Shown in pieces: positions 19,166-43,626 of a DNA stretch of 44,316 nt; positions within the stretch are counted from its first letter, which is position 1, and every line of letters starts with the position of its first letter. The stretch is from a virus. The DNA lies in IMG/VR virus record IMGVR_UViG_3300032245_000985, positions 1 through 44,316 of that record. The stretch is one strand, 5' to 3'. The translations under genes and the position numbers were made by a program. Under the pieces are notes generated by a model. That model had not been told where the DNA came from and did not search any database. It saw only the letters and a program-made list of their open reading frames with translations.

Positions 19166-19713
19166 TTTCTTCCAGTCAATGCAGACATCATGACTTGTTT
19201 CAAAGTCTCTATCAGCACTGTCGAGCAGACTGGGAGGAATGGAATCAAACTCATAATATTGAAACAGAATCAATCAATGCAGGTGATGTATATGAAGCCA
19301 AAATGCTGGATGACCGTTGTGGTTGGTGGGGTGTACCTTTGGTTCATTTTTATAAACGTACTAGATGGAGCGAGCAATGGCCACGTACCTACAGTGCTAC
19401 CAAAGATGTGCCAGGTGTTATACATGTGGCAATAAACTTTACCAAACCAGGCTGCACTATTCCTGTGCATCAAGACAAAGTGGATCGTATCAATGATCGT
19501 GTGGTAGATCTTGTACCCACATTGATAGGAATTCGCATTCCAAGCGACGACATAGATATTGTGGGATTTGAAATAGATCAAAAAAGAATTTATATAGGTG
19601 AAGGAGATATTGTGAGTTTCCTACCAGAACAACCACACGGTAGTTGGAACTTTTCATCAGAATGGAGAGTCACTCTGTACATCACAACAGAAAGAACATA
19701 CTGGCAACTATGA
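19162..19713 (+). CDS. Asp/Asn beta-hydroxylase-like 2OG oxygenase, operon gene 3
   Basis: 183 aa. The triad is H103-Q-D105 (CTIPVHQDKVD) and H159 (EQPHGSWNFS) with R169 (EWRVTLYI) for 2OG. The layout PGCTIPVHQDK ... IGIRIPSDD ... GDIVSFLPEQPHGSWN is the aspartyl/asparaginyl beta-hydroxylase pattern. It differs enough from operon gene 1 that the two are distant paralogues or separately acquired, so the operon has three non-redundant oxygenases. The stop forms ATGA with the aminotransferase start. Confidence 0.8.
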   Translation: MISSSQCRHHDLFQSLYQHCRADWEEWNQTHNIETESINAGDVYEAKMLDDRCGWWGVPLVHFYKRTRWSEQWPRTYSATKDVPGVIHVAINFTKPGCTIPVHQDKVDRINDRVVDLVPTLIGIRIPSDDIDIVGFEIDQKRIYIGEGDIVSFLPEQPHGSWNFSSEWRVTLYITTERTYWQL

Positions 19714-20804
19714 AACCTTTTCCAGGATTAATATGTGGTGAACAAAACCCAGTAGGACCATCGCAACCTTATTGGCAGTATGGTAATATTGTTAATGGAG
19801 TCAAACAAATAGATCCAATATTGCATTTTGGTTGTTTCGTATTAGGATTCCAACGCACAGACATTGTGGATTATGTGTGTGAGCATATGAAAACCAAACC
19901 TGAAGTGGCAGAAAGTTTTCTTGCTCATGATGAATTAAGACTCAATGATGTTACTTGGCAGTTGGCAGAACGACTGCACAGTATGACCGGCTATAAAAGT
20001 ATATTTGCTCTCAGCGGCAGTGATGCCAATGAAGGTGCAGTAAAACTAGCCAGTGCTTATCAAAAACAAATAGGACAAACACAACGCCATCGCATTGTGT
20101 CATTTGAGAACAGTTATCATGGTTCTACTTTCCTAAACTATAATATGGGAGACAGTTTATTCCGCAATCCTTTTTATACACTACGACCTTATGAATCAGT
20201 AACAAGATTACCTAGAGACTTTGCAGTGCTGGATCATAATTGGTCAGATGTGATCTGCGTGATGGTGGAAACCTGTCCATACAATAATGGTCTACAACCT
20301 GACTCGGCTGAATTTTGGGCCAAGATCAATCAAATACAACAGCAAGGAGTTATAGTTATTGTGGATGATATATTCATAGGTGGCGGTAAAACTGGCACTG
20401 TGTTTGGTTGGCAAACATTGCCCATTGCTCCAGATATCACCACACAAGGCAAAGCCATCACGGCAGGCTACTTCCCTCTCAGTATCACAATGTACAACAA
20501 AAAAATTGCTGATGCACTGTTGGATCAATTTGATTGGGAACATGGGTTTACATACAGTTTTTCACTGCCTGGTATTTTAAGTTGTTACAAATATTTAGAT
20601 ATACTAGAACAAGAACAGATATTACAACAACATCAAACAGTAGTCACTGCTGCTCGAACAATCTTTGCTCAACAAGATTATCAAGTGATTGGAGAATTTG
20701 GCACAATGTTTTATATTAAAAGAAAACAAGATAAACAGTTCTTTGTTGTGCCTGTTAATGCCACAGATGAATATTTTGCTGTGTTAAAGGAGCAGTTGCA
20801 ATGA
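19710..20804 (+). CDS. Class III PLP aminotransferase, operon gene 4
   Basis: 364 aa from the ATG at 19710, chosen for its ATGA overlap with the oxygenase. Fold type I class III features are all present: SGSDANEGAVKLA (102-114, cofactor phosphate loop), SYHGST (aromatic/His stacking), D219 in VDDIFIGGGKTG (pyridine N contact) and Schiff-base K248 in TTQGKAITAGYFP. Such enzymes move an amino group between an omega-amine or beta/gamma amino acid and a keto acid; glutamate-1-semialdehyde-type mutases share the fold. It is somewhat short for the family (usually 400-450 aa), losing part of the N-terminal region. It would create or consume an amine that the next enzyme could amidinate. Confidence 0.9.
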   Translation: MKPFPGLICGEQNPVGPSQPYWQYGNIVNGVKQIDPILHFGCFVLGFQRTDIVDYVCEHMKTKPEVAESFLAHDELRLNDVTWQLAERLHSMTGYKSIFALSGSDANEGAVKLASAYQKQIGQTQRHRIVSFENSYHGSTFLNYNMGDSLFRNPFYTLRPYESVTRLPRDFAVLDHNWSDVICVMVETCPYNNGLQPDSAEFWAKINQIQQQGVIVIVDDIFIGGGKTGTVFGWQTLPIAPDITTQGKAITAGYFPLSITMYNKKIADALLDQFDWEHGFTYSFSLPGILSCYKYLDILEQEQILQQHQTVVTAARTIFAQQDYQVIGEFGTMFYIKRKQDKQFFVVPVNATDEYFAVLKEQLQ

Positions 20805-21872: not shown

Positions 21873-22955
21873 TTATAATATATCCCCGTCGTTCTTTTCG
21901 TTGTAGGTGTATGTTTCTGGTACTCGATTCAACACAGGTAATCCTTTGTTCACATAAGCATCTCGAGTGATCACTTGATGCACAAAGTTAGTGAGATAGC
22001 CTTGTCTATTAAATTTAGCCCACGGAGAGTGTTTCAGTTGATGCATGTCTATATTAGCAGCATCTGGCCACTGTATAATTCTCAATTTGTGTCCGTTCAT
22101 ATGTGCCATCATGTGATACATATTGTCATCTCCTTCATCGTGAGCGCTGATCAATTCATGTCCTAATGATCGAGCTATCTTTTCTATTTCTTTATAATTC
22201 TTGCTGATATATGCTGTGGGTTCATTGGGTACTCGACCTATGTTACTGCCCAATCGTATACGAAACTGATATTTTTTCTTTTTATTGTAAGCAGGAAAAC
22301 TATTAATTTCTTCCAATACATCTCGTAGATGCTCATAGTTCTCCACAGTGTATCCTATATAATGGAAATGTAAATCCATATCAATACAATTTTTTATACC
22401 TTCTAATTGTCTCTCATGAGTATCTCTGCCTTGATAACTCCAATGATTCAATCCTATCAGCACATTCTTTACTCTATATAATAATAAATTTTCCACAAAT
22501 TTCTTCTCACTGAGTCTCACACCATTGGTCAGTATAGATGGTACTCTATTATCCTGATGCACACAGTCTATGATATCAAATAGATCTTTTCTCACAGTGG
22601 GTTCTGCACCAGCAAGAATAATATTTTTTAATTGAGCAGGAGCTGTGCGTATGTCATTGTAAATGTAAGCAAGATCGATATCTCTGTCTTTGTTATTGGG
22701 TATATGATAACAATGAGGACAGTCCAACTGACATCTGTTGGTAGTTTCTATCATCAGTATTTTATTATAGAGCTTATTTGTTCGTTGTTCCAATCTCTCG
22801 CAGAATTCTGCATCAGGATCTTGCACTATTTTAAACAATCCGTGTTCTGGACATTCTTTATTAATATATCTCACACCATCTTCCACTGTGATCTGAGAAG
22901 GTAAATGTTTATAACAGATATGACACAGAGAATGTGATTCGTATAATAGTTTCAT
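21873..22955 (-). CDS. Radical SAM enzyme with N-terminal zinc-type motif (Tes/MJ0619-like)
   Basis: 360 aa. The SAM-binding cluster motif is C75-x3-C79-x2-C82 (NRCQLDCPHCYH), followed by an AGAEPTVRKDLFDII glycine/glutamate strand. Ahead of it lies C11-x2-C14 ... C35-P-x-H38 (SLCHICYKH, NKECPEHG), the rubredoxin-like start seen in the MJ0619/tetraether-synthase-like group, whose members act on pterins and lipids. The C-terminal 100 residues have no Cys-rich SPASM domain. Substrate unknown. Its ATG overlaps the SufE stop (ATGA), so the Fe-S enzyme and a sulfur-transfer protein are co-translated. Confidence 0.85.
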   Translation of the reverse strand: MKLLYESHSLCHICYKHLPSQITVEDGVRYINKECPEHGLFKIVQDPDAEFCERLEQRTNKLYNKILMIETTNRCQLDCPHCYHIPNNKDRDIDLAYIYNDIRTAPAQLKNIILAGAEPTVRKDLFDIIDCVHQDNRVPSILTNGVRLSEKKFVENLLLYRVKNVLIGLNHWSYQGRDTHERQLEGIKNCIDMDLHFHYIGYTVENYEHLRDVLEEINSFPAYNKKKKYQFRIRLGSNIGRVPNEPTAYISKNYKEIEKIARSLGHELISAHDEGDDNMYHMMAHMNGHKLRIIQWPDAANIDMHQLKHSPWAKFNRQGYLTNFVHQVITRDAYVNKGLPVLNRVPETYTYNEKNDGDIL

Positions 22956-23356
22956 CTTCCGTTGGCGTAGTTCTTTATTGTTAATATAAGACTGCCCAAA
23001 CCATTCTGTCTCTGTGGTGTGAGTATAGAAGTCATGCCCAATGGTGCAAAATCTTCTATTTTTATTTTTTGTACGTTCTTGTATTTTTGTCCACTCAATA
23101 TATCTAACACAATATAAGCAGTGCCTCGAGTTATAAAAGCATCTGCACCTGCTCGTAATCGCAATACTTCTTTTTCAAATATCGGTATCAACCATAGATT
23201 ACTAGCACAACCGTGTATTTTAAAACTGTCCAACTGATATTTGTCATCTAATGGTTCTAACTTTCGTCCCAAATCCATAAGATATTCTATTCGGTCCATG
23301 CCTGACAACTGATCCAGTGTTTTGCTCCATTGAGTAATCTTATCTTTTATTCGCAT
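22952..23356 (-). CDS. sufE: SufE-like sulfur acceptor
   Basis: 134 aa from the ATG at 23356, preceded by GGGAG. MDRIEYLMDLGRKLEPLDDK and FKIHGCASNLWLIP match SufE/CsdE, in which the Cys (here in HGCASN) accepts persulfide sulfur from a SufS-type cysteine desulfurase. It would boost host Suf Fe-S assembly, with the phage A-type carrier at 17604 as a later step. It lies directly upstream of the radical SAM gene and overlaps the W-rich gene before it by 17 bases. Confidence 0.9.
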   Translation of the reverse strand: MRIKDKITQWSKTLDQLSGMDRIEYLMDLGRKLEPLDDKYQLDSFKIHGCASNLWLIPIFEKEVLRLRAGADAFITRGTAYIVLDILSGQKYKNVQKIKIEDFAPLGMTSILTPQRQNGLGSLILTIKNYANGR

Positions 23357-23636
23357 GATCTCCCATCCTCTGCCACCAGAACCAAAAACGCAGAGCATCC
23401 TTTTTATATTGAAAACTCATATAAGCTCTGTTCCGACCATATGCTCGTTCATCATAGGTATCATAGTCAAGATTGCTCCAATCTGGATGTGTCCAAAACC
23501 ACCAACCCCATGATCCCACGCTGTGTCTTTTGCACCATTCTATAAATTCTCCATCCACTCCAAAAGAATTAAGATCTATATTGTGACGAAATTTCTGTAG
23601 ATAACCAGATTTCTTGCGTCGTTTTTTCTTAATCAT
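23340..23636 (-). CDS. Trp-rich 98-aa protein, unknown
   Basis: 98 aa, basic N-terminus (KKKRRKKSG), then very rich in Trp and Tyr: HSVGSWGWWFWTHPDWSNL and KKDALRFWFWWQRMGDH. No family recognised; not a membrane protein by pattern, since aromatic residues alternate with charges. It overlaps sufE by 17 bases and has its own promoter with TATAAT 7 bases before the ATG. It may head the W-rich/sufE/radical SAM unit. Confidence 0.7.
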   Translation of the reverse strand: MIKKKRRKKSGYLQKFRHNIDLNSFGVDGEFIEWCKRHSVGSWGWWFWTHPDWSNLDYDTYDERAYGRNRAYMSFQYKKDALRFWFWWQRMGDHANKR

Positions 23637-31843: not shown

Positions 31844-34800
31844 TTATAGTAGACGCTCTGCTATAATGTTGTAGCCAATATCAGCACCGTTGTCACTACG
31901 CATAAATGTCACACGATAGATACGACTCAATGCTTTATCCTGTAAGGTAGCTGTAAAAGTGTCGCCAGCACTATCCATACCGCCAAGAGTGTATAAGCTG
32001 GTCCAGGCATTGTTGGCTACGATTGTTCCAGTACTGCCTGCTTGTGTTACTGCACTGCCAGATCTTGCAGCCACCACTGTCCAAGCAAGATTCCTTGCTG
32101 AAGTATTACCGATAACCTGGGGAAATATGCCAGCAAGCCCAGAATTTGTTATGCGGAAACGCATTTCATCCACAGTAAGTTCAGTGCCCATTGCGGCATT
32201 GAACGCTGTTCTTGCTACGCTAGGTGTTCTTGCTGTTACTGTTGCGTCAAGATTAACATTAAACCCAGTAGGACTCATGGTCAATACATTGGTAAACGCA
32301 CTGCTACTACGGAACTGGAACTGTCCGTTAGTGGTTCCACCATTACTAACATCAAAGTATATTACACTGGCTCCGTTGGTACGATCACGGATAGCCGCAT
32401 CTCTGGGCACAGACAATGCCACATTACTAATAGCACTGTCGCCCGCACTAAATGCTGTTGTGTGATTACTTGTGACAGTGGCAGTTGTGCCTATGGTCTT
32501 GCCACTGGCCATTGACAGGTTATTGTTGATAGTGGTAGTGCCTGTACCTGCTCCAACACTTAAAGTGGTAGCGGCCCCGGCAAAGTTTACAGTTGTTGCC
32601 GTTGTATTAATTAAATCAAAAATTGTGCTTGGTGTTGTCAGGCTATTGGTAATTGCCGGACTGGTCATTGCTGGCGTGGCACCAAAGCTGGTTAGACTAC
32701 TTGCTGTTACACCGCTGGCCAATGTATTACCAGTCAAGGATCCTGCTGCCGCACTTGTTATAGCTCCCCATGGAGTTGTTTTCCAGTTGGCGGTTGCTGG
32801 TGGTTGTATCAATGTATAAGAAATCCCGTTACCAAGTCCACTATAACCACTACTCATAGTGATATTGATAATCTGATTGGAACCTGTGATATTGGTTACA
32901 GGAGCTCCGCCATATGACCATCCTGCAGGTGTAGCGGCAAAGGCTGCAACTATCGCAATCCGAAGTGCGGAAGACCCGGCATCAACAACAACCTGTATTA
33001 AGCCGCCACTGCTTACGATTGGCAAGGAATAGCTTGTACCTGTGAATGCTTGGAAACAATAATAAATGTAAGTGCTGTCAAATGCCACACTGCCTACAAC
33101 ATCACCGGCAGCACCAGTTAGTGCTGATGGCACTGCTGTGATCTTTATTGAGTTGGTGCCGTCTGTTAGTGTAGGTATGTTAATGGCTGCACTGCCATTA
33201 AAGCTAACACCATTGATGTTTCGTGCTGTGGTCAGCGTGGCGGCTGACCCACTCACTGATCCAGTGATAGTGTTTGTAACTGATAGATTTGTTAAGGTAC
33301 CTACGCTTGTAAGACTACTTGCTGTTACTCCTGATGCTAGAGTATTTCCAGTCAGTGTACCTGCTGCTGCTGTGACTGTGATGTCAGCACTTCCATTAAA
33401 ACTAACACCGTTGATGTTGCGAGCAGTGGTCAGTGTAGGTGAACTACCAGTCCAAGCTGTGGTCTGCACAGTAGCGTCTGGGAATGTTAAACTGCCAGTA
33501 CTTGTAGCACCAGTGACTGTGAGACTTTCCACTGTGGTGGGTGTTATCAAAGATGTTACTGGATTCACTAACACAATAACTCCCGGAGTGCGAGGCACAG
33601 TTGGAGTGGTGCCTGGTGCTAGAGTTTCGATTTTAGTGGTGGTGTTGTCGTCACAACTCCAAACAATCTGCACATACTGTCCGGCAGTGACAGTTACAAT
33701 AAATGGAGTTATTGCAATCAAGTAGCCGTTGTTGTTCTGTTTTGAAGGTATGGTAAATCTACTGTTGGAATCTGCTATGTCTGAACCGTTCTTTCTAAAC
33801 CATACATTGACATCACTGGCATCAGTTTCCACATTATGAAACTGGAGGCTGAATTCTATCTCATAAGTTCCAGCGTAGGCAAAGGTAATTCTATTGCCCG
33901 ACACAATGCTAACACCATTGGCTTCAGCAGTCTGCCCAATGGCTACCACATAGGCAGTGGTCTGACTGGTTGCTGTCTGTTCAGCAGATGTATCGTAGAA
34001 ACTGCCATAGTAGGCAATGCCTGTGGGCAGAGTATCCACACCATTCACTGTGGTGGGTATCCACTTGCTGGTAGCAGTGTTGTAGGTCAATACTTGATTG
34101 TTGCTGGCTCCTGCTACGTTGGTATCAGTGAGTTCAGACAAGGCGTCAGGATAGTTGGCTGTGATGACTCCACTGCCGTTTATGGTAATGGTTGTGCCGT
34201 CAACTTTGACACCACCCAGTACTGTTGTTGAAGCTGTGGGTAAAGAATAAGCGGAACCACTGATAGTTAAAGTATCTCCTGACACTGCTGTGGTCACTGT
34301 GCCAGCACCAGCAATCTTAAATGTTTCTCCAATGGTCACATCTGTGCCTGTAGAGTCATCTCCCACTATGGTGATTGCCTTATCGGTTTTTTGAGTATAA
34401 TTGGTTAAATTAGGACCAGTGATGGTTAGGGTATCTCCTGACACTGCTGTGGAGATGTTAGATGCACCTGCAATTTTTAATGTTTCTCCATTGTTAAGTG
34501 TAACTCCTGTGGAGTCATCACCCACCACTGTGATAGTGGAATTGGTCAGATATGATGATAGATTTGGTCCTGTTATGGTGATATTGCCTTCACTGTCTGA
34601 AGCAGTGGTGATGCCACTCGACCCTATAAACTTGACTGTTTCTCCATTGTTAATGGTCCTACTGGTGCTGTCATCTGCAGCCACATTGAATGTGTATGGC
34701 TGTGCGGCTGTGGTTTGTCTTGTGTTGTCAAAAAATGTAATACCGCTTGATGAATTATTTGTAAAAACTATTCCTGTTGAATCTACACTAACACCAGTTA

Positions 34801-36538
34801 CTCTAGTAACACTACCAGTTGGAACAACTAAAAAGTTTATACGTGTTCCAACAGCTGAATTACTGAAATCTTCAGCAGCTTGAAATTGTACAGCGGATAA
34901 TGAAGTTGTATTAGGACCGTAAGCACTACCTGTATAACCAGAAGCATTAAATGAAGTTAATACATCTAAATTTTTAGTTGCTGTTGGACTATTTGATGTT
35001 CCTCGTGCTTGTCTTCCTACATATAAAGGAAATACACCAGTACCAAAAGAATCATTTGTTATAATGCTTGGACGATTATCATTACCTGAAAGGTGAAGCA
35101 TACCACCTGCACTAACAACCGGTTGAACAGTACCATTTGTAGAACCATTAATTAATACAGCGCCACGATCTAAAGAAGGAATATTTGGTACAGTTATTTC
35201 AACTCGACCCTCACGACTAACTGAAAATGTACTAAAACTAGAAGATGTTTGTACATTAATCGCTCTATTAAATGTAATGTTACCTGTAGCACCAAGTGAA
35301 CCAACTATCATATTACGAGTAGCATCACCAATCTTAATCTGATTGTCTATAAGAGTAAATTCTCCTACTTTTAATCCTACACCACCTTGTAAATAAACTA
35401 ATCCATCACGAGCACCTATGGCAGTATCTGTACCTAATGTTTCGTCTTTAATATAAATTGTACCAGCACCTAACCATAATTGTTTAAATCGGTGAGAAGG
35501 CGTACCTAAACTCCATGTATCAGTACTATAGGGAATAATATCAGAGTGGTTTATTATATGACCACCAGCTCCAGCATTTAAAGTAATATCCGTATTTGCT
35601 TGTGTAACAATAGATAAACCAGCATTTGTTATTGCACGAGCAAAAGTTAATACTGTGTCAGATACTGGTAGTGGCAAATCTGGATCAAAATTTAAATCTG
35701 TTATAATAATTTTATTGTAACTACCAGTACCTACATATAGAATTTTACTACCTACAGGAATACCTGCACCTGCTACAACATCATCTACTTGAAGTGCTAT
35801 TGCAGGAGTAGATTTTAATTGTAATACTGCATAAGGCCCTGTACCTAATCCATTACTAAGACCATAATCAGGCGGCGTTAATGATGATCTATCATTGCCG
35901 TGTTCTAAAACCGAATCTAAATTTTCATTTGATATATTTGCTATAATTTGTTCTGCACTAGAAATTACAGAACCTACAGGAATATTTACAGAATTAACTG
36001 AAATATTATTTGTTGTTGTGTTGCCTCTATCAGTAACAGAATCCAGAGTATCTGCTTCAGCTGTGAGATAAGAACCCAAATTGGGTCCTGTGATGGTTAG
36101 GGTATCTCCTGACACTGCTGTGGTTATACCTGATGTACCTGCAATTTTTAATGTTTCTCCATTATTAAGTATAACTCCTGTAGAGTCATCGCCTACCACT
36201 CTTAGAGTGGAATTGGTTAGATATGAACTTAGATTAGGTCCTGTGATTGTAAGTGTATCTCCTGACACTGCTGTGGTTATGCCACCTGTGCCGGTTACTT
36301 TTAGAGTTTCTCCATCGGAAACTCGTGTGCCTGTGCTGTCATCACCTACGAATGTTAATCCCTGTGCTGTGCCACCTCCTTCACCACCACCAATAATAGT
36401 ACCACCTGGTGTGTCGTCTAATTGTATTCTTAGAGTATTGGTATTAGAATCATACCATATACGATATAACTCTCCTATACGAGTGTTGCCATCTGAGTAG
36501 GGTTGATAACTGGAAAATATCTTTTGAGTAAAGGCCAT
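31844..36538 (-). CDS. Giant tail fibre, 1564 aa, with C1q-like domain
   Basis: The ATG at 36538 has the strongest Shine-Dalgarno in the window (AGGAGG). The N-terminus is FTQKIFSSYQPYSDGNTRIG, then repeats of the form GDDSTGTxVxxGETLKxxG followed by TAVSGDTLTITGPNLSSYLT. Residues about 120-640 are a separate low-GC part. Near 850-1000, PTGIAYYGSFYDTSAEQTAT, NRITFAYAGTYEIEFSLQFH and YVQIVWSCDD read as a C1q/TNF-like jelly roll, often receptor-binding. Repeats of SLTSVGTLTNLSV and ATLTTARNINGVSFNGSA follow. Almost no Cys. It likely recognises host. Confidence 0.85.
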   Translation of the reverse strand: MAFTQKIFSSYQPYSDGNTRIGELYRIWYDSNTNTLRIQLDDTPGGTIIGGGEGGGTAQGLTFVGDDSTGTRVSDGETLKVTGTGGITTAVSGDTLTITGPNLSSYLTNSTLRVVGDDSTGVILNNGETLKIAGTSGITTAVSGDTLTITGPNLGSYLTAEADTLDSVTDRGNTTTNNISVNSVNIPVGSVISSAEQIIANISNENLDSVLEHGNDRSSLTPPDYGLSNGLGTGPYAVLQLKSTPAIALQVDDVVAGAGIPVGSKILYVGTGSYNKIIITDLNFDPDLPLPVSDTVLTFARAITNAGLSIVTQANTDITLNAGAGGHIINHSDIIPYSTDTWSLGTPSHRFKQLWLGAGTIYIKDETLGTDTAIGARDGLVYLQGGVGLKVGEFTLIDNQIKIGDATRNMIVGSLGATGNITFNRAINVQTSSSFSTFSVSREGRVEITVPNIPSLDRGAVLINGSTNGTVQPVVSAGGMLHLSGNDNRPSIITNDSFGTGVFPLYVGRQARGTSNSPTATKNLDVLTSFNASGYTGSAYGPNTTSLSAVQFQAAEDFSNSAVGTRINFLVVPTGSVTRVTGVSVDSTGIVFTNNSSSGITFFDNTRQTTAAQPYTFNVAADDSTSRTINNGETVKFIGSSGITTASDSEGNITITGPNLSSYLTNSTITVVGDDSTGVTLNNGETLKIAGASNISTAVSGDTLTITGPNLTNYTQKTDKAITIVGDDSTGTDVTIGETFKIAGAGTVTTAVSGDTLTISGSAYSLPTASTTVLGGVKVDGTTITINGSGVITANYPDALSELTDTNVAGASNNQVLTYNTATSKWIPTTVNGVDTLPTGIAYYGSFYDTSAEQTATSQTTAYVVAIGQTAEANGVSIVSGNRITFAYAGTYEIEFSLQFHNVETDASDVNVWFRKNGSDIADSNSRFTIPSKQNNNGYLIAITPFIVTVTAGQYVQIVWSCDDNTTTKIETLAPGTTPTVPRTPGVIVLVNPVTSLITPTTVESLTVTGATSTGSLTFPDATVQTTAWTGSSPTLTTARNINGVSFNGSADITVTAAAGTLTGNTLASGVTASSLTSVGTLTNLSVTNTITGSVSGSAATLTTARNINGVSFNGSAAINIPTLTDGTNSIKITAVPSALTGAAGDVVGSVAFDSTYIYYCFQAFTGTSYSLPIVSSGGLIQVVVDAGSSALRIAIVAAFAATPAGWSYGGAPVTNITGSNQIINITMSSGYSGLGNGISYTLIQPPATANWKTTPWGAITSAAAGSLTGNTLASGVTASSLTSFGATPAMTSPAITNSLTTPSTIFDLINTTATTVNFAGAATTLSVGAGTGTTTINNNLSMASGKTIGTTATVTSNHTTAFSAGDSAISNVALSVPRDAAIRDRTNGASVIYFDVSNGGTTNGQFQFRSSSAFTNVLTMSPTGFNVNLDATVTARTPSVARTAFNAAMGTELTVDEMRFRITNSGLAGIFPQVIGNTSARNLAWTVVAARSGSAVTQAGSTGTIVANNAWTSLYTLGGMDSAGDTFTATLQDKALSRIYRVTFMRSDNGADIGYNIIAERLL
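34419..34452. repeat. Direct repeat copy 1 (34 bp) in giant fibre gene
   Basis: A 34-base perfect direct repeat shared with 36090-36123, lying inside the TAVSGDTLTITGP coding module. Shorter 22-base versions lie at 34272-34293 and 36255-36276. It flanks a region of different composition. Confidence 0.85.
34740..36040 (-). other. Low-GC inserted module within the giant fibre gene
   Basis: Hand counts of 60-base lines here give about 28-42% GC, against about 48-55% in sampled lines just outside. The encoded residues (for example FKQLWLGAGTIYIKDETLGT and TLNAGAGGHIINHSDIIPYS) lack the surrounding GDDSTG repeats and resemble other marine phage fibres. Boundaries are approximate. It lies between the two 34-base repeats, so it probably entered by recombination between fibre modules. 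Confidence 0.5.
36090..36123. repeat. Direct repeat copy 2 (34 bp) in giant fibre gene
   Basis: Second copy of the 34-base repeat found at 34419-34452; the two are 1.67 kb apart in the same orientation and could recombine. Confidence 0.85.
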
Positions 36539-36812: not shown

Positions 36813-36840
36813 ACTGTTATTTAGTTGAGGTATACTGTGT

Positions 36841-37296
36841 TTAAGAAACTACCTGTAATGCCCTACGAGCACGTCTTTTACGCATGGGTACCACAGCGCC
36901 AGTTAATGGTATTTCCTTAAGATCGTTCTCACGATCTAGAAATTTGTAGTCCATTTTGATCACACCAAAACGACGCAGTGACTCAAACACCACATCAGTG
37001 TCCAATGCTCCACAGGTGTACACGTCCAATTGTATCATGGCAGGCTCGCACTCATCCCAAGTGTGCATCACCACGTGTGACGTTTCAATGATGGCAAAAC
37101 AAGTCAATCCACGATTGCCAGGAATATCCACATACTTGGCTTCTGGGCCAAACAGTATTTTCATGTTAATGCCTTCAATCAGTTCTCGTAAAAATTCTTT
37201 TGCTAGTGTCTCATCTTTGGGTGGGTTTGTTACTTCTGCTCGCACTATCAAGTGCTTGTGAACAAGTGGTTTCATTTTCTGTTTGTCTCCTGACAT
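36841..37296 (-). CDS. speD: S-adenosylmethionine decarboxylase (SpeD, prokaryotic type)
   Basis: 151 aa. The self-processing Ser is S73 in ETSHVVMHTW, with H78 and C95 (LDVYTCG) as the other catalytic residues of the AdoMetDC proenzyme, which cleaves itself to create a pyruvoyl group. It supplies decarboxylated SAM for spermidine; polyamines neutralise packaged DNA. The basic C-terminal tail (MRKRRARRALQ) is unusual for the family. An alternative start is the ATG at 37275. SpeD is known in marine T4-like phages. The promoter upstream is TTGACA/TTAAAT. Confidence 0.93.
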   Translation of the reverse strand: MSGDKQKMKPLVHKHLIVRAEVTNPPKDETLAKEFLRELIEGINMKILFGPEAKYVDIPGNRGLTCFAIIETSHVVMHTWDECEPAMIQLDVYTCGALDTDVVFESLRRFGVIKMDYKFLDRENDLKEIPLTGAVVPMRKRRARRALQVVS

Positions 37297-37312
37297 TGTT
37301 TTTATACAGGCT

Positions 37313-37341
37313 ATTTAACAATATTTTTTAAAATTTGTCAA
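37313..37341 (-). promoter_or_regulatory. Sigma70-like promoter for speD
   Basis: On the minus strand TTGACA (37336-37341), a 17-base spacer, TTAAAT (37313-37318), then about 16 bases to the ATG at 37296; here a short leader remains. Confidence 0.5.
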
Positions 37342-37403
37342 TTATAATCTTCTTTTTTATGAAACTTTTTTACAAAAAAAATAAAATTATTTGCAACCTA
37401 CGG

Positions 37404-39440
37404 TCATTTTGTGGAAGCGTGAAATATTCCGTCCCAATCCTTTGGAAGCGTTTGAGTTGCTTGAAACTCGCAACGTTCAATCCACATATTATAGTAAAGT
37501 GTCATCTTGCCATCAAACTCACTTTTAAGTTCTTCACACAATTTAATAGCATCGCCGAACTTCTGAGAACGGTATAATTCATGCATTTTGTTGTGTTTTT
37601 CTTTAGCTTTTGCATAATCTTTATTAACATTGTCCAACACTGTATAGATACCAATGCCCACGCTCTTGCCTTTGACAGCTAAATCATCTATCTTTAGGAA
37701 AAAGAAATCATCTCCGCATAGTTTCACAGTGTTTTCTCCCACCAACAACAAACAACCATATTCTTTACATTTGCTTTCAATACGAGCAGTGGTGGATACA
37801 GCATCACCCAACACATCATAAGAGTGGCGCTGTGTGCTGCCCATCTCACCGATGTAGCCCAATCCTGTGTTGATACCAGCACCCATGCCCACAGCAGGTC
37901 TGCCTTTGGCTGTTAATTGTTTATTAAATTGTTCCACTGCTTTCAACATATTAAGAGCAGTTCGCACTGCTGTCTTTGGATGTTCTGGATCATCGATGGG
38001 TGCGTTGTGAATGTGCATGCTGGCATCACCAATATACTTGATGATCATACCATTGGCTTCTAAAACGGGTTGTGTGATGGCATCCATATAACTATTCATT
38101 ACTTCAGTCAACCCTTTCACATCATTACCGAATGATTCTCCCAGTGGAGTGAATCCTCTTAAATCTGAAAAACAGATGGATACTTCTTTTTTAATACCCT
38201 GTTTGATTATGTCTGGATTCTTCTGCAACATTTCCACAACCATGGGAGATGCATATCCTCCAAACTGTTTCTTGATTCTCTGTTTCTGTAGATATTCGCT
38301 GACAAATTTAATACCATAAGCATGCAACATTATCAGTATCAATCCTGCCACTAGTAGAGTGCCATCCAACAACCAAAGGTGATGTGTGTAAAAATAACTG
38401 CTGATTGGAACCACAGCGACGATAGCAACGGCTCCTGCTGCCATGCCCACATAAACCCATCTGCTCAAAAATAGCAAACCTAAAGATAACACTATTAAAC
38501 TTAAAACCTCTGCACCTTCAGCCCAATCAGGTCTCTTGATATTCACTCGGTTGATCATGGTGCCTATCACGGCTGCCTGTAGATCCTGAGGCCAAACTGG
38601 TCCTATGGCTGTGGCCACTGGATTGCCTATGCCTGCTGCTGATGTACCCACTATCACTATTGCGCCTTTAAAATCTTGGGGTAGATTGCTCAGTGACGCT
38701 GATTGATTACGTTGACTCCAATCAATCCATACTCTGCCCAATGAATCTGTGTCAATGATGCCTATGTCTCCAGGCAGTCGTATCTTCTCCACACCGTTGG
38801 CATTTAACTTCACTTGAAACGTAGAATTATTTGTGGCCACTCTTAGAGTTTCCATAGCAAGGTTAGGATATAATTTTCCATCCACTGTGACAATCAGAGG
38901 CAGTCGTCGGTTCACCCCATCTATCTCTGGCAGTGTATTAGTAGTTCCTACTCCCACAGCAGCGTTTTCCAATGACGGTATATTAGCAATCATGCCTGGA
39001 TATCTCACAATGGTGTTAAGATGTTCTGGTCCCAGCACTGCTGATCCTGGCACTCGGGGTTCATTCTTGGTCTGCTGTGCTGGCACGTTGCTCAACACCA
39101 CAGGATAATTTTTCATAGTCTCGGCTAATATCGAATCTTTGCCACTGCGATCTGCTTCTGGCATCAGCACGTTGAACACTACCAGACCTGCTTTGCGTTC
39201 GTATAAATCTTTGATTATGCCTGCATACACATCTCTAGGAAATGGCCATTGTCCATACTGCTCCAAACTCTTCTCGTCAATATTAACGGTGTATATGCTG
39301 TTTTGTGTGGCGGTTTTGCCGGTAATCAGTGTATCAAAATATCGCAGTCGCACACTCTCTACGAACTTGGGATCTGCGACCCTAATCGTGAGGATTAATA
39401 TTAAAGTAACGATTGCTGTCCAAGGACTGACCCATTTCAT
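37404..39440 (-). CDS. CHASE2-domain membrane adenylate/guanylate cyclase
   Basis: 678 aa. An N-terminal membrane segment (about 6-24) is followed by a periplasmic CHASE2 sensor (about 30-300: TVNIDEKSLEQYGQWPFPRD, then an RPDWAEGAEVLSLIVLSLGL exit). Three or so helices follow (about 310-395), then a class III cyclase domain (about 415-600). FSDLRGF and YIGDASMHIHNAP give the two metal Asp. Lys in MIIKYIGDA and Asp in SYDVLGDAVSTTARIES match mammalian Lys938/Asp1018, which favours ATP. The transition-state Asn1025 position is Ser and the Arg is kept. A phage-encoded cAMP-type sensor is very unusual. A late-like box lies 8 bases before the ATG. Confidence 0.9.
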   Translation of the reverse strand: MKWVSPWTAIVTLILILTIRVADPKFVESVRLRYFDTLITGKTATQNSIYTVNIDEKSLEQYGQWPFPRDVYAGIIKDLYERKAGLVVFNVLMPEADRSGKDSILAETMKNYPVVLSNVPAQQTKNEPRVPGSAVLGPEHLNTIVRYPGMIANIPSLENAAVGVGTTNTLPEIDGVNRRLPLIVTVDGKLYPNLAMETLRVATNNSTFQVKLNANGVEKIRLPGDIGIIDTDSLGRVWIDWSQRNQSASLSNLPQDFKGAIVIVGTSAAGIGNPVATAIGPVWPQDLQAAVIGTMINRVNIKRPDWAEGAEVLSLIVLSLGLLFLSRWVYVGMAAGAVAIVAVVPISSYFYTHHLWLLDGTLLVAGLILIMLHAYGIKFVSEYLQKQRIKKQFGGYASPMVVEMLQKNPDIIKQGIKKEVSICFSDLRGFTPLGESFGNDVKGLTEVMNSYMDAITQPVLEANGMIIKYIGDASMHIHNAPIDDPEHPKTAVRTALNMLKAVEQFNKQLTAKGRPAVGMGAGINTGLGYIGEMGSTQRHSYDVLGDAVSTTARIESKCKEYGCLLLVGENTVKLCGDDFFFLKIDDLAVKGKSVGIGIYTVLDNVNKDYAKAKEKHNKMHELYRSQKFGDAIKLCEELKSEFDGKMTLYYNMWIERCEFQATQTLPKDWDGIFHASTK

Positions 39441-39448
39441 AATATGGG

Positions 39449-39456
39449 TATTTATT
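39449..39456 (-). promoter_or_regulatory. T4-late-like promoter box (AATAAATA) for the cyclase
   Basis: AATAAATA on the minus strand, 8 bases before the ATG at 39440. It indicates that the cyclase is expressed on the phage programme rather than being a host remnant. Confidence 0.5.
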
Positions 39457-39487
39457 ATCTTTAAACTGTTACAATAGCAACTGATGA

Positions 39488-40126
39488 TTATTTGATCAAT
39501 TCTGAGTGTGCCACAGTTCTTAGATAAGGCTTAATTTTACGGAAAGATTTTGGAAATCTTTGCTGTGCCTGCTCATCTGACAATGCTGCAGTAACAATTA
39601 AATTTTCTCCCTGTTTCCAGTTAGCCGGTGTAGCCAATTGATGTTTAGCAGTGATCTGTAATGAATCTACTACTCTCAATATCTCATCAAAATTTCTACC
39701 TGCTGATGCTGGATAGTCTAATCTCAATTTAACTTTCTTATCTGGCCCTATCACAAACACAGTTCGCACAGTCATAGTGTCTGGAGCACTATCTCTCACC
39801 ATGCCATACAACTGACTTACACGTCTGTCATTATCTGCTATCAGAGGATATTTAGGCAATTGACCTTGAGTTTCGTGTATATCGTTCAACCATTGGTCGT
39901 GATTATCTAAGTTGTCCACACTTAATCCAATCACTCGCACTTCACGTTTTTTAAATTCAGGCAATAGTTTTTGTAAAGTACCTAATTCAGTGGTGCACAC
40001 TGGAGTAAAATTCTTTGGATGTGAAAACAGTATGGTCCATTGATCATTAATGAATTCATAAAAATTAATTGTTCCATGACTGGTGTTAGCAGTGAAGTCT
40101 GGTGCTATATCATTTATTTGTATCAT
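39488..40126 (-). CDS. 1-Cys peroxiredoxin (Prx6/AhpC-TSA family)
   Basis: 212 aa. The peroxidatic Cys sits in FTPVCTTEL after SHPKNFTP, with conserved Arg in the DSAPDTMTVRTVFVIGPDKK region. The C-terminal extension (WKQGENLIVTAALSDEQAQQ) and lack of a second resolving Cys mark the Prx6-type 1-Cys group. It reduces peroxides using cellular thiols. It has a strong Shine-Dalgarno AAAGGAG and a TTGACT/TAAATT promoter about 25 bases upstream. Alongside SOD at 23655 it gives the phage two oxidative-stress enzymes. Confidence 0.92.
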   Translation of the reverse strand: MIQINDIAPDFTANTSHGTINFYEFINDQWTILFSHPKNFTPVCTTELGTLQKLLPEFKKREVRVIGLSVDNLDNHDQWLNDIHETQGQLPKYPLIADNDRRVSQLYGMVRDSAPDTMTVRTVFVIGPDKKVKLRLDYPASAGRNFDEILRVVDSLQITAKHQLATPANWKQGENLIVTAALSDEQAQQRFPKSFRKIKPYLRTVAHSELIK

Positions 40127-40280: not shown

Positions 40281-41696
40281 TTAATTGCCTTGACGCACTG
40301 TGGTTGTGCCGCAACCGCCCAATGTCACGCAGTTGGTTGTTATATTATAAGTCTGACCACCGGTCTGTGCGAGATCCACACCTGCTGGTCCACCCAGGTT
40401 GTTGATCACTATAGTGGCCTTGTTCTGAGTTGTGCCAGATTGTGCCACTGTGGCACTATTACCATTGCCATTCAGTGTGATATCCAGATAGTGATTGGCA
40501 CCTGTGCCTGACTGTGTGGTACTCACAGTGTTGTTGTTGCCCGTGACGGAATTGAATAACAGTTTGTTATCTCCCGACTGTGTGCTGGTGATAGAATTGT
40601 AATTGCCACTTACAGAGTGTTCCATATAATTGCCCACTGTGCCCACATCACGATTCTGTTGAGTGGTCACTGTGTTATAACTGCCCTGCACATCCACTTT
40701 CTGATAGTTGTTGCCCAATTGATTGCCGCTCAGTGTGCCGTCTGACAGATAGCCTTGATTGAGATTGAGAGTGTTGTTGCCCGTGCCAGACACATTTAAA
40801 TCTATTAAATTTTTACCTGTGCCACTGTTCTGTCTGATAGTGGTAGAGTTGCTGTTGCCTGATATGGTGGCAGTTTGCTGTGTGGTGCCTGTGATTTTAT
40901 TATTATTACCTTTTTGAGTAATTGTGGTGGTGTTGTTGTTACCCACTTGATCTATATAGATCTCATTGCCGTTGTTGATGGTATCAGTCCTGCTTCTATT
41001 GGCAGTGATATTGATCTGTTGTCCACTGGTAACGTTGCTGGTGTAAACACTGCCACCATATCCACCTGCTTGACCACTGGCAGTACCTCCTGTGGCACTG
41101 TAGTAACCACCATTGACTAGAGCGCCATTATTGATCACACAGGTTGCCGATCCAGAATACAAGGCACAATTTTGCCAGCCTGCAGTGCTGGTCCAACCCT
41201 GAGCAAAACCATTGGTTCCATGTATACCAAACTCTGGATTATATAAAATGTTAGGACCACCATTGAACGTCAGTGACGGGTTGATAATATGCGGTCCATA
41301 GTTGCCGGCCCAGTAGCCGCCATCTTTGCCATAGAACTCTACCTTAACATACGCAACCGTGGCACATGATCCGCCACAGTTGGTAGTTGTTGTTGTATAT
41401 GTTGTGGGGGTTGAGGCTCCGTAGACCAAGGTATTGGATAGCTGTGCTGTGTTTACAATAGCATTACTGCTGTTGTAAAACACCATCCTTATAACGAATG
41501 GATCACCAGGTGCTCTTCCACCACCATCCATGGCCTGAGTAGACAGTGTGAATGTCCCACCAGCCCGCATGTCATTGTTGAATACCACTGTCTGACTTAC
41601 TGTTGTAAAATTATAGGCCATTTTGATGGCATTGTTGATGGCCATTGCTGTATTACTAAAAAATAATAATAATAAAATTATAAAAATTTTTCTCAT
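40281..41696 (-). CDS. Secreted curlin-repeat (CsgA-like) protein, 471 aa
   Basis: An N-terminal Sec signal peptide (MRKIFIILLLLFFSNTAMA) is followed by a non-repeat region (20-240) rich in Gly, Asn and Tyr with paired Cys (TTTNCGGSCATVAYVKVEFY). The C-terminal half consists of curlin-type repeats on the Q-x-G-x-x-N pattern: DQVGNNNTTTITQKGNNNKI, TISGNSNSTTIRQNSG, SITSTQSGDNK, STTQSGTG, TVAQSGTTQNKATI. Curlin repeats form stacked beta amyloid. Its ATG overlaps the FecR-gene stop. Roles could be a host-surface aggregate or a virion decoration; neither is shown. Confidence 0.82.
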   Translation of the reverse strand: MRKIFIILLLLFFSNTAMAINNAIKMAYNFTTVSQTVVFNNDMRAGGTFTLSTQAMDGGGRAPGDPFVIRMVFYNSSNAIVNTAQLSNTLVYGASTPTTYTTTTTNCGGSCATVAYVKVEFYGKDGGYWAGNYGPHIINPSLTFNGGPNILYNPEFGIHGTNGFAQGWTSTAGWQNCALYSGSATCVINNGALVNGGYYSATGGTASGQAGGYGGSVYTSNVTSGQQINITANRSRTDTINNGNEIYIDQVGNNNTTTITQKGNNNKITGTTQQTATISGNSNSTTIRQNSGTGKNLIDLNVSGTGNNTLNLNQGYLSDGTLSGNQLGNNYQKVDVQGSYNTVTTQQNRDVGTVGNYMEHSVSGNYNSITSTQSGDNKLLFNSVTGNNNTVSTTQSGTGANHYLDITLNGNGNSATVAQSGTTQNKATIVINNLGGPAGVDLAQTGGQTYNITTNCVTLGGCGTTTVRQGN

Positions 41697-42811
41697 TTTT
41701 GTATCACTGTTATGGTTGTGCTGCCACCTGAGTTAACTCTATTCTGAATACTCACTGGTCCTTGACCTTGTATAATTGTGCTGTTCTGACTTCTTGGAGT
41801 TTTGATACACTGATTGTTACTGCCATCATTTTTACACAATGTTACATCAGTGGCACCCACACTGGCTTTTACTCCTGTGTTGGGATCATAATCAGGCAAT
41901 AAACTGTCTTTGTCTTGTGCAAGAGCACTTTTTAATATTGTTTTTCTTTCATTTTTTATTTGTTGTTCTAATATATCAAAAATGTTGGCTAAGAAATTTT
42001 GTCCCAATAAATCTTCCAAAAGAGGATTATCACCAAACTCATTTCTGCTTTTTAATTCATCTTTTAAAAAATCCTTGCTATCTAATAGATTTTCATTCAG
42101 CATGCTGGCTGAATTTTTTTCTGATTTCTCATCTTCCTGTTGTTTGGCGATTTCTTTTGGAGGACTCACAATCAATAGGTTATTAATAGTATCTAAATTT
42201 AAACTCAGTATTGCAGGTTTTAATGGAGCTGTGTTTCTGTTCTCTACTCGAGTGCCTTGAAATGGTTGATTTAAAGTAACTGTGCCTGCGTTATTCATTA
42301 CATCAATTATGCCTGTTTTACAATCTCGTTCTATATCTGCCCAACCTTTGGGACAACTAGGCAATAAAATAATGGTACTGGCTCCCACTTCATCCACAGT
42401 GGCAGTAAAGTCTGTGCCTCTCACTGCAATGGTGGCAGATGGTGTGTTGATATTAACTGAGTTGGGATCTTTGTGTGCAATAGCACCTGAAGCATATCTC
42501 ACAGTGCCTTCAGCAAACTTCATGGCCAGTTTACCTGTGCCTTTTTTAGGATCATACACGAAATCATCTATTACAAGTTTGGAATTTTCATTCACTTCCA
42601 CTTTGGTAGCATCTTCAAATGTTATGCCCACTTTGCCTTTGGCAGTATTCACAGCATCCTGCATCTCTATGCCTGTGCCTTTGGTGCCTGATATGGTATT
42701 CTTATTTCTCACAATAGACCCTGGTGCTGCTGTTTGTTCTGTGATGGTTCCTATGGCTGCTGAGTATACAGAAGTGGTGTACAACAGCATTAATAATACG
42801 ATCTTTTTCAT
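41693..42811 (-). CDS. FecR-domain protein with signal peptide and curlin-like tail
   Basis: 372 aa. Signal peptide 1-18 (MKKIVLLMLLYTTSVYSA). The FecR domain lies at about 35-150: GKVGITFEDATKVEVNENSK, LAMKFAEGTVRYASG, VNINTPSATIAVRGTDFTAT, the standard ending TPxATxAVRGTxF. A charged coiled-coil-like middle (210-300, many Glu/Lys) precedes a C-terminus QNSTIIQGQGPVSIQ ... TTITVIQK, which reads as curlin repeats. It has no membrane anchor and no sigma-factor-type region, so it is not a classic TonB-linked FecR regulator. Location suggests it is a partner of the curlin proteins. Confidence 0.82.
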   Translation of the reverse strand: MKKIVLLMLLYTTSVYSAAIGTITEQTAAPGSIVRNKNTISGTKGTGIEMQDAVNTAKGKVGITFEDATKVEVNENSKLVIDDFVYDPKKGTGKLAMKFAEGTVRYASGAIAHKDPNSVNINTPSATIAVRGTDFTATVDEVGASTIILLPSCPKGWADIERDCKTGIIDVMNNAGTVTLNQPFQGTRVENRNTAPLKPAILSLNLDTINNLLIVSPPKEIAKQQEDEKSEKNSASMLNENLLDSKDFLKDELKSRNEFGDNPLLEDLLGQNFLANIFDILEQQIKNERKTILKSALAQDKDSLLPDYDPNTGVKASVGATDVTLCKNDGSNNQCIKTPRSQNSTIIQGQGPVSIQNRVNSGGSTTITVIQK

Positions 42812-43626
42812 TATCTTGAATTCACGTTGATGTTAAAGTTGTTGCTGCTGCCTGTGGTTTTAATATCCACAGTGCTGTCCACTGCAATGCCTGACTGTGC
42901 TATGGTGTGCGTGTTGAGGTTACCGCTGACAGAAAGATTGGTCCAATGCCCTAGAGCTCCTCCACCTGATTGTGTTATAGTGGCAGTGTTCTGATTGCCT
43001 GTTATATCCAATATGACCAAACCTTTAGTGCCACTTTGAGTGATAGAAATATTATTGAGATATCCTGTCACACTAGCAAAAGATAAATTATCCACTCCTG
43101 ATGTGACGCTGTTGTATGTGTTCACATCTCCAGCTGTCAGCAACAGCACTGTGTTTCTCATGCCTGTGATTGATATGTTGGTTTCGTTAAAATCTCCTGT
43201 TTCAACCACATACAAAGATATGCCCGATGTTTCTGTCTTGCCATCTGAATTCACATCTACGTAGCCTAGGTTGCCATATCCTGTAGAATAGTACACAAAA
43301 GTATTGGGGGTAGATAATTTGCAGTCAGAGCAAGTGAGACCCGCTCGGTCTTCACTGTCTTCAAAATTAGTAACTATGGAAAATTTTAGATAGTTGCCAG
43401 ACCCTATCTGTCTGATGTCTACGTTTTGACCATCACCATACATCATGGCAGGATTAGCGTACCATATAGGTCCATCCACTCCACCTAGACGATTGGCTGA
43501 ACCATCCTGTTCCACATAGATGGTAGCATAATCTCCCAGTTGATCGATGTAGGCTTCGTTATCAGCTGCCCAGCAGGCTGCCGAGGAAAGTATCAGTCCT
43601 GCTGTTAACCAATGTAGAAGCCTCAT
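42811..43626 (-). CDS. Secreted curlin-repeat protein, 271 aa
   Basis: Signal peptide 1-21 (LTAGLILSSAACWA ending before ADNEAY). Repeats resemble CsgB/CsgA: IDQLGDYATIYVEQDGSANR, IRQIGSGNYLK, NISITQSGTKGLVILDI, TATITQSGGGALGHWTN, HTIAQSGIAVDSTVDI. Two Cys (about 98 and 101, LTCSDCKL) form a possible disulfide in the non-repeat part. Its stop overlaps the FecR-gene ATG by one base (TAATG). AAGGA precedes its own start. Confidence 0.8.
   Translation of the reverse strand: MRLLHWLTAGLILSSAACWAADNEAYIDQLGDYATIYVEQDGSANRLGGVDGPIWYANPAMMYGDGQNVDIRQIGSGNYLKFSIVTNFEDSEDRAGLTCSDCKLSTPNTFVYYSTGYGNLGYVDVNSDGKTETSGISLYVVETGDFNETNISITGMRNTVLLLTAGDVNTYNSVTSGVDNLSFASVTGYLNNISITQSGTKGLVILDITGNQNTATITQSGGGALGHWTNLSVSGNLNTHTIAQSGIAVDSTVDIKTTGSSNNFNINVNSR

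Follow-up and report, generated by a model that had tools for sequence, protein, structure and literature searches.

Curli genes in marine phages have already been described, and the closest known system is that of the pelagiphages, whose curli clusters were reported by Wittmers et al. 2022 (PMC9599517), in the part of that paper covered here, to hold an adenylate cyclase together with FecR and to derive from Alphaproteobacteria. Two further papers, Zaragoza-Solas et al. 2020 (PMC7029224) and, on phage Melnitz, Buchholz et al. 2022 (PMC9004378), also discuss curli genes, and the word "cyclase" does not occur in the covered portions of either main text; as far as those portions go, the reason for curli genes in marine phages has been left unexplained in print. 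The covered main text of Wittmers et al. does not name CHASE2, and an exchange of cyclase domains was likewise not found there. Across the literature searched, we found no report of a CHASE2 sensor, an active-site variant or a domain exchange in a phage cyclase, and the publications that join CHASE2 with bacteriophage are, judged by their titles and the start of their abstracts, on other subjects.

Here we analyse such a cyclase of a marine phage in a stretch of 44,316 nucleotides, referred to below as the window, which is the entire IMG/VR virus record IMGVR_UViG_3300032245_000985. The phage gene is not new as such, being already known and annotated in the cultured phages Melnitz and HTVC008M, and a protein search returned relatives in nine phage records, six of which are entries for one of these two. 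What is new relative to print, within the literature searched, is a phage-type active site and the repeated exchange of the catalytic domain.

A sensor cyclase gene at the end of a phage curli cluster

The gene runs on the minus strand from an ATG at 39440 to 37404 and forms an intact open reading frame of 678 amino acids. A CHASE2 domain (Pfam PF05226, residues 12-321, including part of the first helix, 38478-39407; E 1.7e-38) precedes a class III cyclase catalytic domain (Guanylate_cyc, PF00211, residues 417-593, 37662-38192; E 2e-16), which is the arrangement of a CHASE2 sensor cyclase, and both matches exceed the Pfam curated gathering cut-offs; NCBIfam assigned the protein no family. An AlphaFold model (mean pLDDT 90), built from 49 sequences, predicts an N-terminal helix at residues 6-22, an alpha/beta domain of periplasmic type that ends near residue 296, and three helices at 307-325, 329-354 and 360-393 (38262-38522, minus strand), presumably membrane helices, that link the sensor to a catalytic domain at 416-602. 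Beyond it lies a C-terminal extension (residues 608-678, 37407-37619, minus strand), helical in the model over residues 608-661 and absent from the HTVC008M protein. The best PDB matches of the model in Foldseek are the class III cyclases 3r5g, 1wc3 and 2w01, with TM-scores by target length of 0.89 for CyaB (3r5g) and 0.87 for CyaC (1wc3).

Upstream of the cyclase, and also on the minus strand, follow a 1-Cys-type peroxiredoxin identified by domain searches (39488-40126), a curlin-repeat protein of 471 amino acids (40281-41696; PF07012), a FecR-domain protein of 372 amino acids with a signal peptide recognised by eye (41693-42811; PF04773 at residues 54-146, E 2.9e-11), a CsgB-like curlin-repeat protein of 271 amino acids (42811-43626; PF07012, and the NCBIfam CsgB model at E 9.2e-11, below its cut-off), and, at the edge of the window, a curlin-like open reading frame probably cut by the contig end (43636-44259), which is placed as in Melnitz and has repeats visible by eye and no Pfam match. 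Two genes, the peroxiredoxin and a curlin-repeat gene, thus separate the cyclase from the FecR-domain gene. The order in Melnitz is csgF, csgG, curlin, FecR, curlin, cyclase, and that of the window is the same except for the peroxiredoxin; HTVC008M has a matching order when its unnamed open reading frames are interpreted by size and position. The window stops inside the cluster, before csgG and csgF. Among the matches listed, and counting only distinct viral relatives whose upstream DNA is long enough, FecR stands upstream of the cyclase in 139 of 148 cases, curlin in 144 of 160, CsgG in 106 of 114 cases and CsgF in 104 of 112. Seven of the eight records lacking an upstream CsgG carry it elsewhere, which brings the records with CsgG to 113 of 114 among the matches listed; the exception, L262, is 41.5 kb long and may be a fragment.

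Several observations on these neighbours stand by themselves. In phage contig L004, a 3-mercaptopyruvate-sulfurtransferase-like gene with an apparent signal peptide (L004:3368-4333) occupies the place of the peroxiredoxin. The FecR-domain protein matched PF04773 only, with no anti-sigma part detected, and its nearest NCBIfam models, the surface proteins Lsa33 and LipL45, fall far below their cut-offs; the published label "iron-dependent regulator" may not fit it. Three contigs labelled bacterial, two from a Rhodobacteraceae bin (L084, L085) and one from a Pirellulales bin (L090), carry phage-type cyclases adjoining FecR and curlin, and L084 and L085 also have csgF and csgG and so the full phage-type curli cluster; these three are probably phage DNA binned with bacteria.

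The other genes of the window are of phage type, including a clamp loader, baseplate/tail-fibre connectors and PhoH, and it also holds cellular-type genes for S-adenosylmethionine decarboxylase (36841-37296), SufE (22952-23398), a class III aminotransferase (19644-20804) and DnaJ (1506-2345); no tRNAs or structured RNAs were found in it. A 1564-aa open reading frame at 31844-36538 has no match in Pfam (E 0.01) or PHROG (E 0.001), and its stretch is missing from L004, where the DNA on its flanks is otherwise 90-95% identical. The initial annotation of this DNA had proposed a full-length CHASE2 cyclase among phage genes, which the intact reading frame, the two Pfam domains and the presence of the same gene in isolates bear out. 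It had also suggested looking for CHASE2 on other phage genomes, and in 30 long records, viral or from isolates, exactly one such gene was found in each. Viral records of 328 kb (L247) and 338 kb (L258) both carry a CHASE2 cyclase. It had also associated the nearby FecR gene with a pairing in bacteria, and a FecR-like open reading frame does adjoin the cyclase at five of nine listed, more distant bacterial loci (L087-L089, L098, L102); the curli (type VIII secretion) cluster around FecR, and the prior annotation in cultured phages, had escaped it.

Its late-type promoter stands in part. The late-promoter-like core ATAAATA lies 8 bases ahead of the cyclase ATG in a motif scan (39449-39455, minus strand), while the canonical TATAAATA, the exact T4 octamer, has no match in the window. 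All eight ATAAATA cores of the window are on the minus strand, and seven begin 13-39 bases above the start of a minus-strand open reading frame (40 starts listed), including those of tail-type genes at 13871 and 16430. The core is rarer here than in shuffled sequence (8 against a mean of 15.2), so what is unusual is its placement and not its number. Among the matches listed, ATAAATA occurs within 60 bases upstream of the cyclase in 27 of 135 relatives, where 1.2 would be expected from random 60-mers, and the commonest spacing before phage cyclase genes is a gap of 5 bases (9 of the 27). In the stretch of HTVC008M (L083), five of five motif-bearing starts have the core, exactly 5 bases and then the start codon, and in that of Melnitz (L082) two of six do. 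If transcription starts relative to this core as it does at T4 late promoters, late mRNAs with a gap of 5 would be leaderless.

Active-site types and exchange of the catalytic half

For the active site, we drew viral relatives from four viral-contig scans (the best 80 loci per scan), the isolates and the window, which gave 298 listed loci and 256 distinct proteins, 251 of them after removal of five unreadable at residues 542 and 549. The bacterial sample was 121 distinct catalytic domains, one of them unreadable, and left out L084, L085, L086, L090 and L092, which are phage-like DNA in bacterial bins, or fragments. The window cyclase has the metal-binding Asp426 and Asp472 and the adenine pair Lys468 and Asp542, as a class III cyclase should; among the matches listed, Asp426, Lys468 and Asp472 are present in all 254 readable viral relatives and Arg553 in all 251. 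Residue 549, which in alignments to solved PDB cyclases falls at the position of the transition-state asparagine, is a serine, so that the usual Asn-Arg pair is broken while Arg553 is kept. The initial annotation was right that the metal- and purine-binding residues are intact, and had passed over this replacement. The transition-state role of the asparagine position is described in the part of PMC4215837 covered here, as is Ma1120, a cyclase lacking this asparagine, which makes the Asn-Arg pair usual, not universal, and hence not defining.

Only three combinations occur at residues 542 and 549 among the readable viral relatives from the matches listed: D-S in 112, the type of the window, S-N in 94 and T-N in 45. 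The asparagine is present in 120 of 120 readable bacterial domains, and among contigs labelled bacterial D-S occurs only in L084, L085 and L090; within the sampled relatives, then, sequence comparison found the D-S site only in phage-type genes. On a catalytic tree built without the two site columns, to avoid circularity, the D-S proteins form one clade (SH-aLRT 99), which points to one origin of the site, not many.

The two halves of the protein have different histories. Clustering the 243 viral proteins with both domains at 85%/85% gave, from the matches listed, 150 representatives, in which the sensor was compared over residues 10-330 and the catalytic domain over residues 415-602. The window and L004 share 96% identity in the sensor and 49% in the catalytic domain; with L008, L014, L017, L055 and L245 the values are 88-89% and 41-42%, and with L002 and L003 the pattern is reversed (64% and 87-88%). 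By blastn, the DNA of the window and L004 matches over 38212-39462 (93% identity) and over 36840-37392 (95%), with nothing matched from 37393 to 38211; the exchanged segment spans 37393-38258 on the minus strand, breaking at residue 395 (392-397), with homology resuming just beyond the stop codon. A chimeric assembly is unlikely as the source of this swap, since it would take two joints within about 870 bases, homology resumes right after the gene, and several further contigs and pairs also show exchanges. In 13 of 14 pairs, picked by eye out of 54, the best breakpoint falls at residues 295-395, the interval between sensor and catalytic domain. Across the 150 representatives, among the matches listed, two changes of the site code suffice on the catalytic tree and 18 are needed on the sensor tree, both trees being quick searches with SH-aLRT support only; the sensor-tree figure falls to 15 if branches supported below 95 are disregarded, and shuffled labels give a mean of 65 changes and a minimum of 54. 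Two changes against 15-18 imply, by this comparison of trees, that sensor and catalytic domain have been recombined at least about 13 times among the representatives.

The cyclase is under purifying selection. We estimated dN/dS (NG86) from at most 1500 randomly drawn pairs per type, retaining those with a dS of 0.15-1.2, and obtained catalytic-domain medians of 0.081 for D-S (28 pairs), 0.080 for S-N (233) and 0.085 for T-N (71), and sensor medians of 0.12, 0.285 and 0.196; by these lower values, the output domain is the more constrained half. In pairwise identities across 78 loci, FecR, CsgG and CsgF have diverged in step (rank correlations 0.60-0.67) and sensor and catalytic domain moderately so (0.57), whereas divergence of the cyclase is largely unrelated to that of the curli block (0.03-0.26). 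Since the halves recombine and the cyclase diverges apart from the block, its link to curli is one of persistent gene neighbourhood only. We also considered a specific FecR-CHASE2 sensing pair, which finds no support from co-divergence: FecR does not track the sensor over the 78 loci (rank correlation 0.12, or -0.05 given CsgG), which counts against a tight pair.

What the cyclase may do

On balance we think it somewhat probable that the gene encodes an inner-membrane sensor cyclase of the phage that converts ATP to cAMP in the late stage of infection, its signal being one arm of the curli module and read by cAMP receptors of the host. In such a mechanism, CHASE2 would lie in the periplasm, anchored by one helix on its N-terminal side and three behind it, and would control the cytoplasmic class III catalytic domain, and the cyclase would belong to a module with CsgF, CsgG, curlin repeats and FecR. 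The sensor would probably report on curli export or on the condition of the envelope, and the catalytic domain would most likely produce cAMP, which could then signal to the infected host. Host receptors are proposed because no cNMP-binding protein was found in the phages: the domain was absent from all 30 long records, some of which may be fragments, and the same search was positive in 10 of 14 control genomes, so a receptor encoded by the phage was set aside. The presence of a cyclase near curli genes in nearly all sampled records, strong selection and a frequent late core together suggest that the curli programme includes a second-messenger branch. Loss of the transition-state asparagine, which was reported to be essential in mammalian cyclases (Yan et al. 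1997, as cited in PMC4215837), and the uncoupled divergence of cyclase and curli genes count against this explanation.

The first of these two difficulties could mean that D-S proteins have little or no catalytic activity and act in signalling or as scaffolds by binding nucleotides, with only S-N and T-N proteins as full cyclases. We consider this rather unlikely. Serine replaces asparagine in 112 of the 251 readable viral proteins, among the matches listed, and in none of the 120 readable bacterial domains sampled; against this, the metal-binding aspartates, Lys468 and Arg553 remain invariant in the D-S proteins among the matches listed, and purifying selection is equally strong on the three types. 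Moreover, according to the covered part of PMC4215837, Ma1120 has the Lys-Asp pair with alanine for the asparagine, is an active adenylyl cyclase and loses its activity when asparagine is put in, and by analogy with it cyclase activity of the D-S domain is plausible. Another reading, to which we give only tentative and comparably low credence, goes further: the Asp542-Ser549 site would have evolved in phages as an exchangeable output behind diverse envelope sensors, with a turnover or product unlike that of cellular enzymes. If so, the exchange of catalytic domains would let phages retune or rewire a second-messenger signal of late infection. The window, L004 and L008, with near-identical sensors and different catalytic domains, are natural pairs for testing the role of the output.

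The second difficulty suits a passenger cyclase with no function tied to curli, recombining at the 3' edge of a curli-FecR block that is itself conserved, as FecR, CsgG and CsgF diverge together and the cyclase hardly follows; we find this less likely again, because CsgG is present in nearly every record, even if not always upstream on the cyclase strand, and selection on the cyclase is strong. Slightly less likely still is a different or additional cyclic nucleotide used in competition with host defence or other phages, for example in Pycsar interference, the swaps then being an arms race. The number of exchanges, the confinement of D-S to phage-type genes within the sample and the match of Pycsar cyclase models to the domain (best E 1.3e-15) fit this picture, but Lys468-Asp542 is an adenine pair, no defence-related gene was seen adjoining the cyclase, and the models match the S-N and T-N types better than the window protein, as a shared class III fold predicts. 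Nor does the protein qualify as a Pycsar cyclase itself: the PADLOC PycC models match the catalytic domain only, and no Pycsar effector gene is among the annotated neighbours (curlin, FecR, peroxiredoxin, AdoMetDC), which leaves the proposed interference with nucleotide-based defence unsupported. The altered catabolism that the initial annotation suggested finds no support here either. The possibility, raised at the outset, that the contig turns into host DNA at this end deserves almost no credence; CHASE2 genes are frequent in Alphaproteobacteria, occurring in 89 of 190 genomes, but hundreds of viral contigs carry the cyclase, and the isolates Melnitz and HTVC008M, with their matching gene order, rule out host contamination.

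Comparison with described systems

The window most resembles the pelagiphage curli cluster of Wittmers et al. (PMC9599517, as far as covered), with which it shares gene content and order, the phage setting, a terminal adenylate cyclase and alphaproteobacterial affinity; it differs in adding a peroxiredoxin between curlin and cyclase, and in a FecR-domain protein whose anti-sigma part was not detected. The cyclase can be likened to Ma1120 of Mycobacterium avium, a cellular enzyme, by the published site residues and not by sequence alignment: in the covered part of PMC4215837, Ma1120 has the Lys-Asp pair, the asparagine replaced, there by alanine and here by serine, and the arginine kept. Bacterial CHASE2 class III cyclases of Roseovarius (L087-L089) have the same full-length architecture, including the C-terminal part, and an adjoining FecR-like gene, but are 29% identical, with a T-N site and no curli genes detected at their loci. 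The cyclase of Pelagibacter phage HTVC008M (YP_007517885.1) also joins CHASE2 to a cyclase domain and closes a curli cluster, at 36% identity to that of the window, with an S-N site and without the C-terminal extension. Closest among the cultured phages is the cyclase of Methylophilales phage Melnitz (QZI94387.1), which is 48% identical over its full length, has the D-S site and, the peroxiredoxin apart, like neighbours, and carries a sensor of a different lineage.
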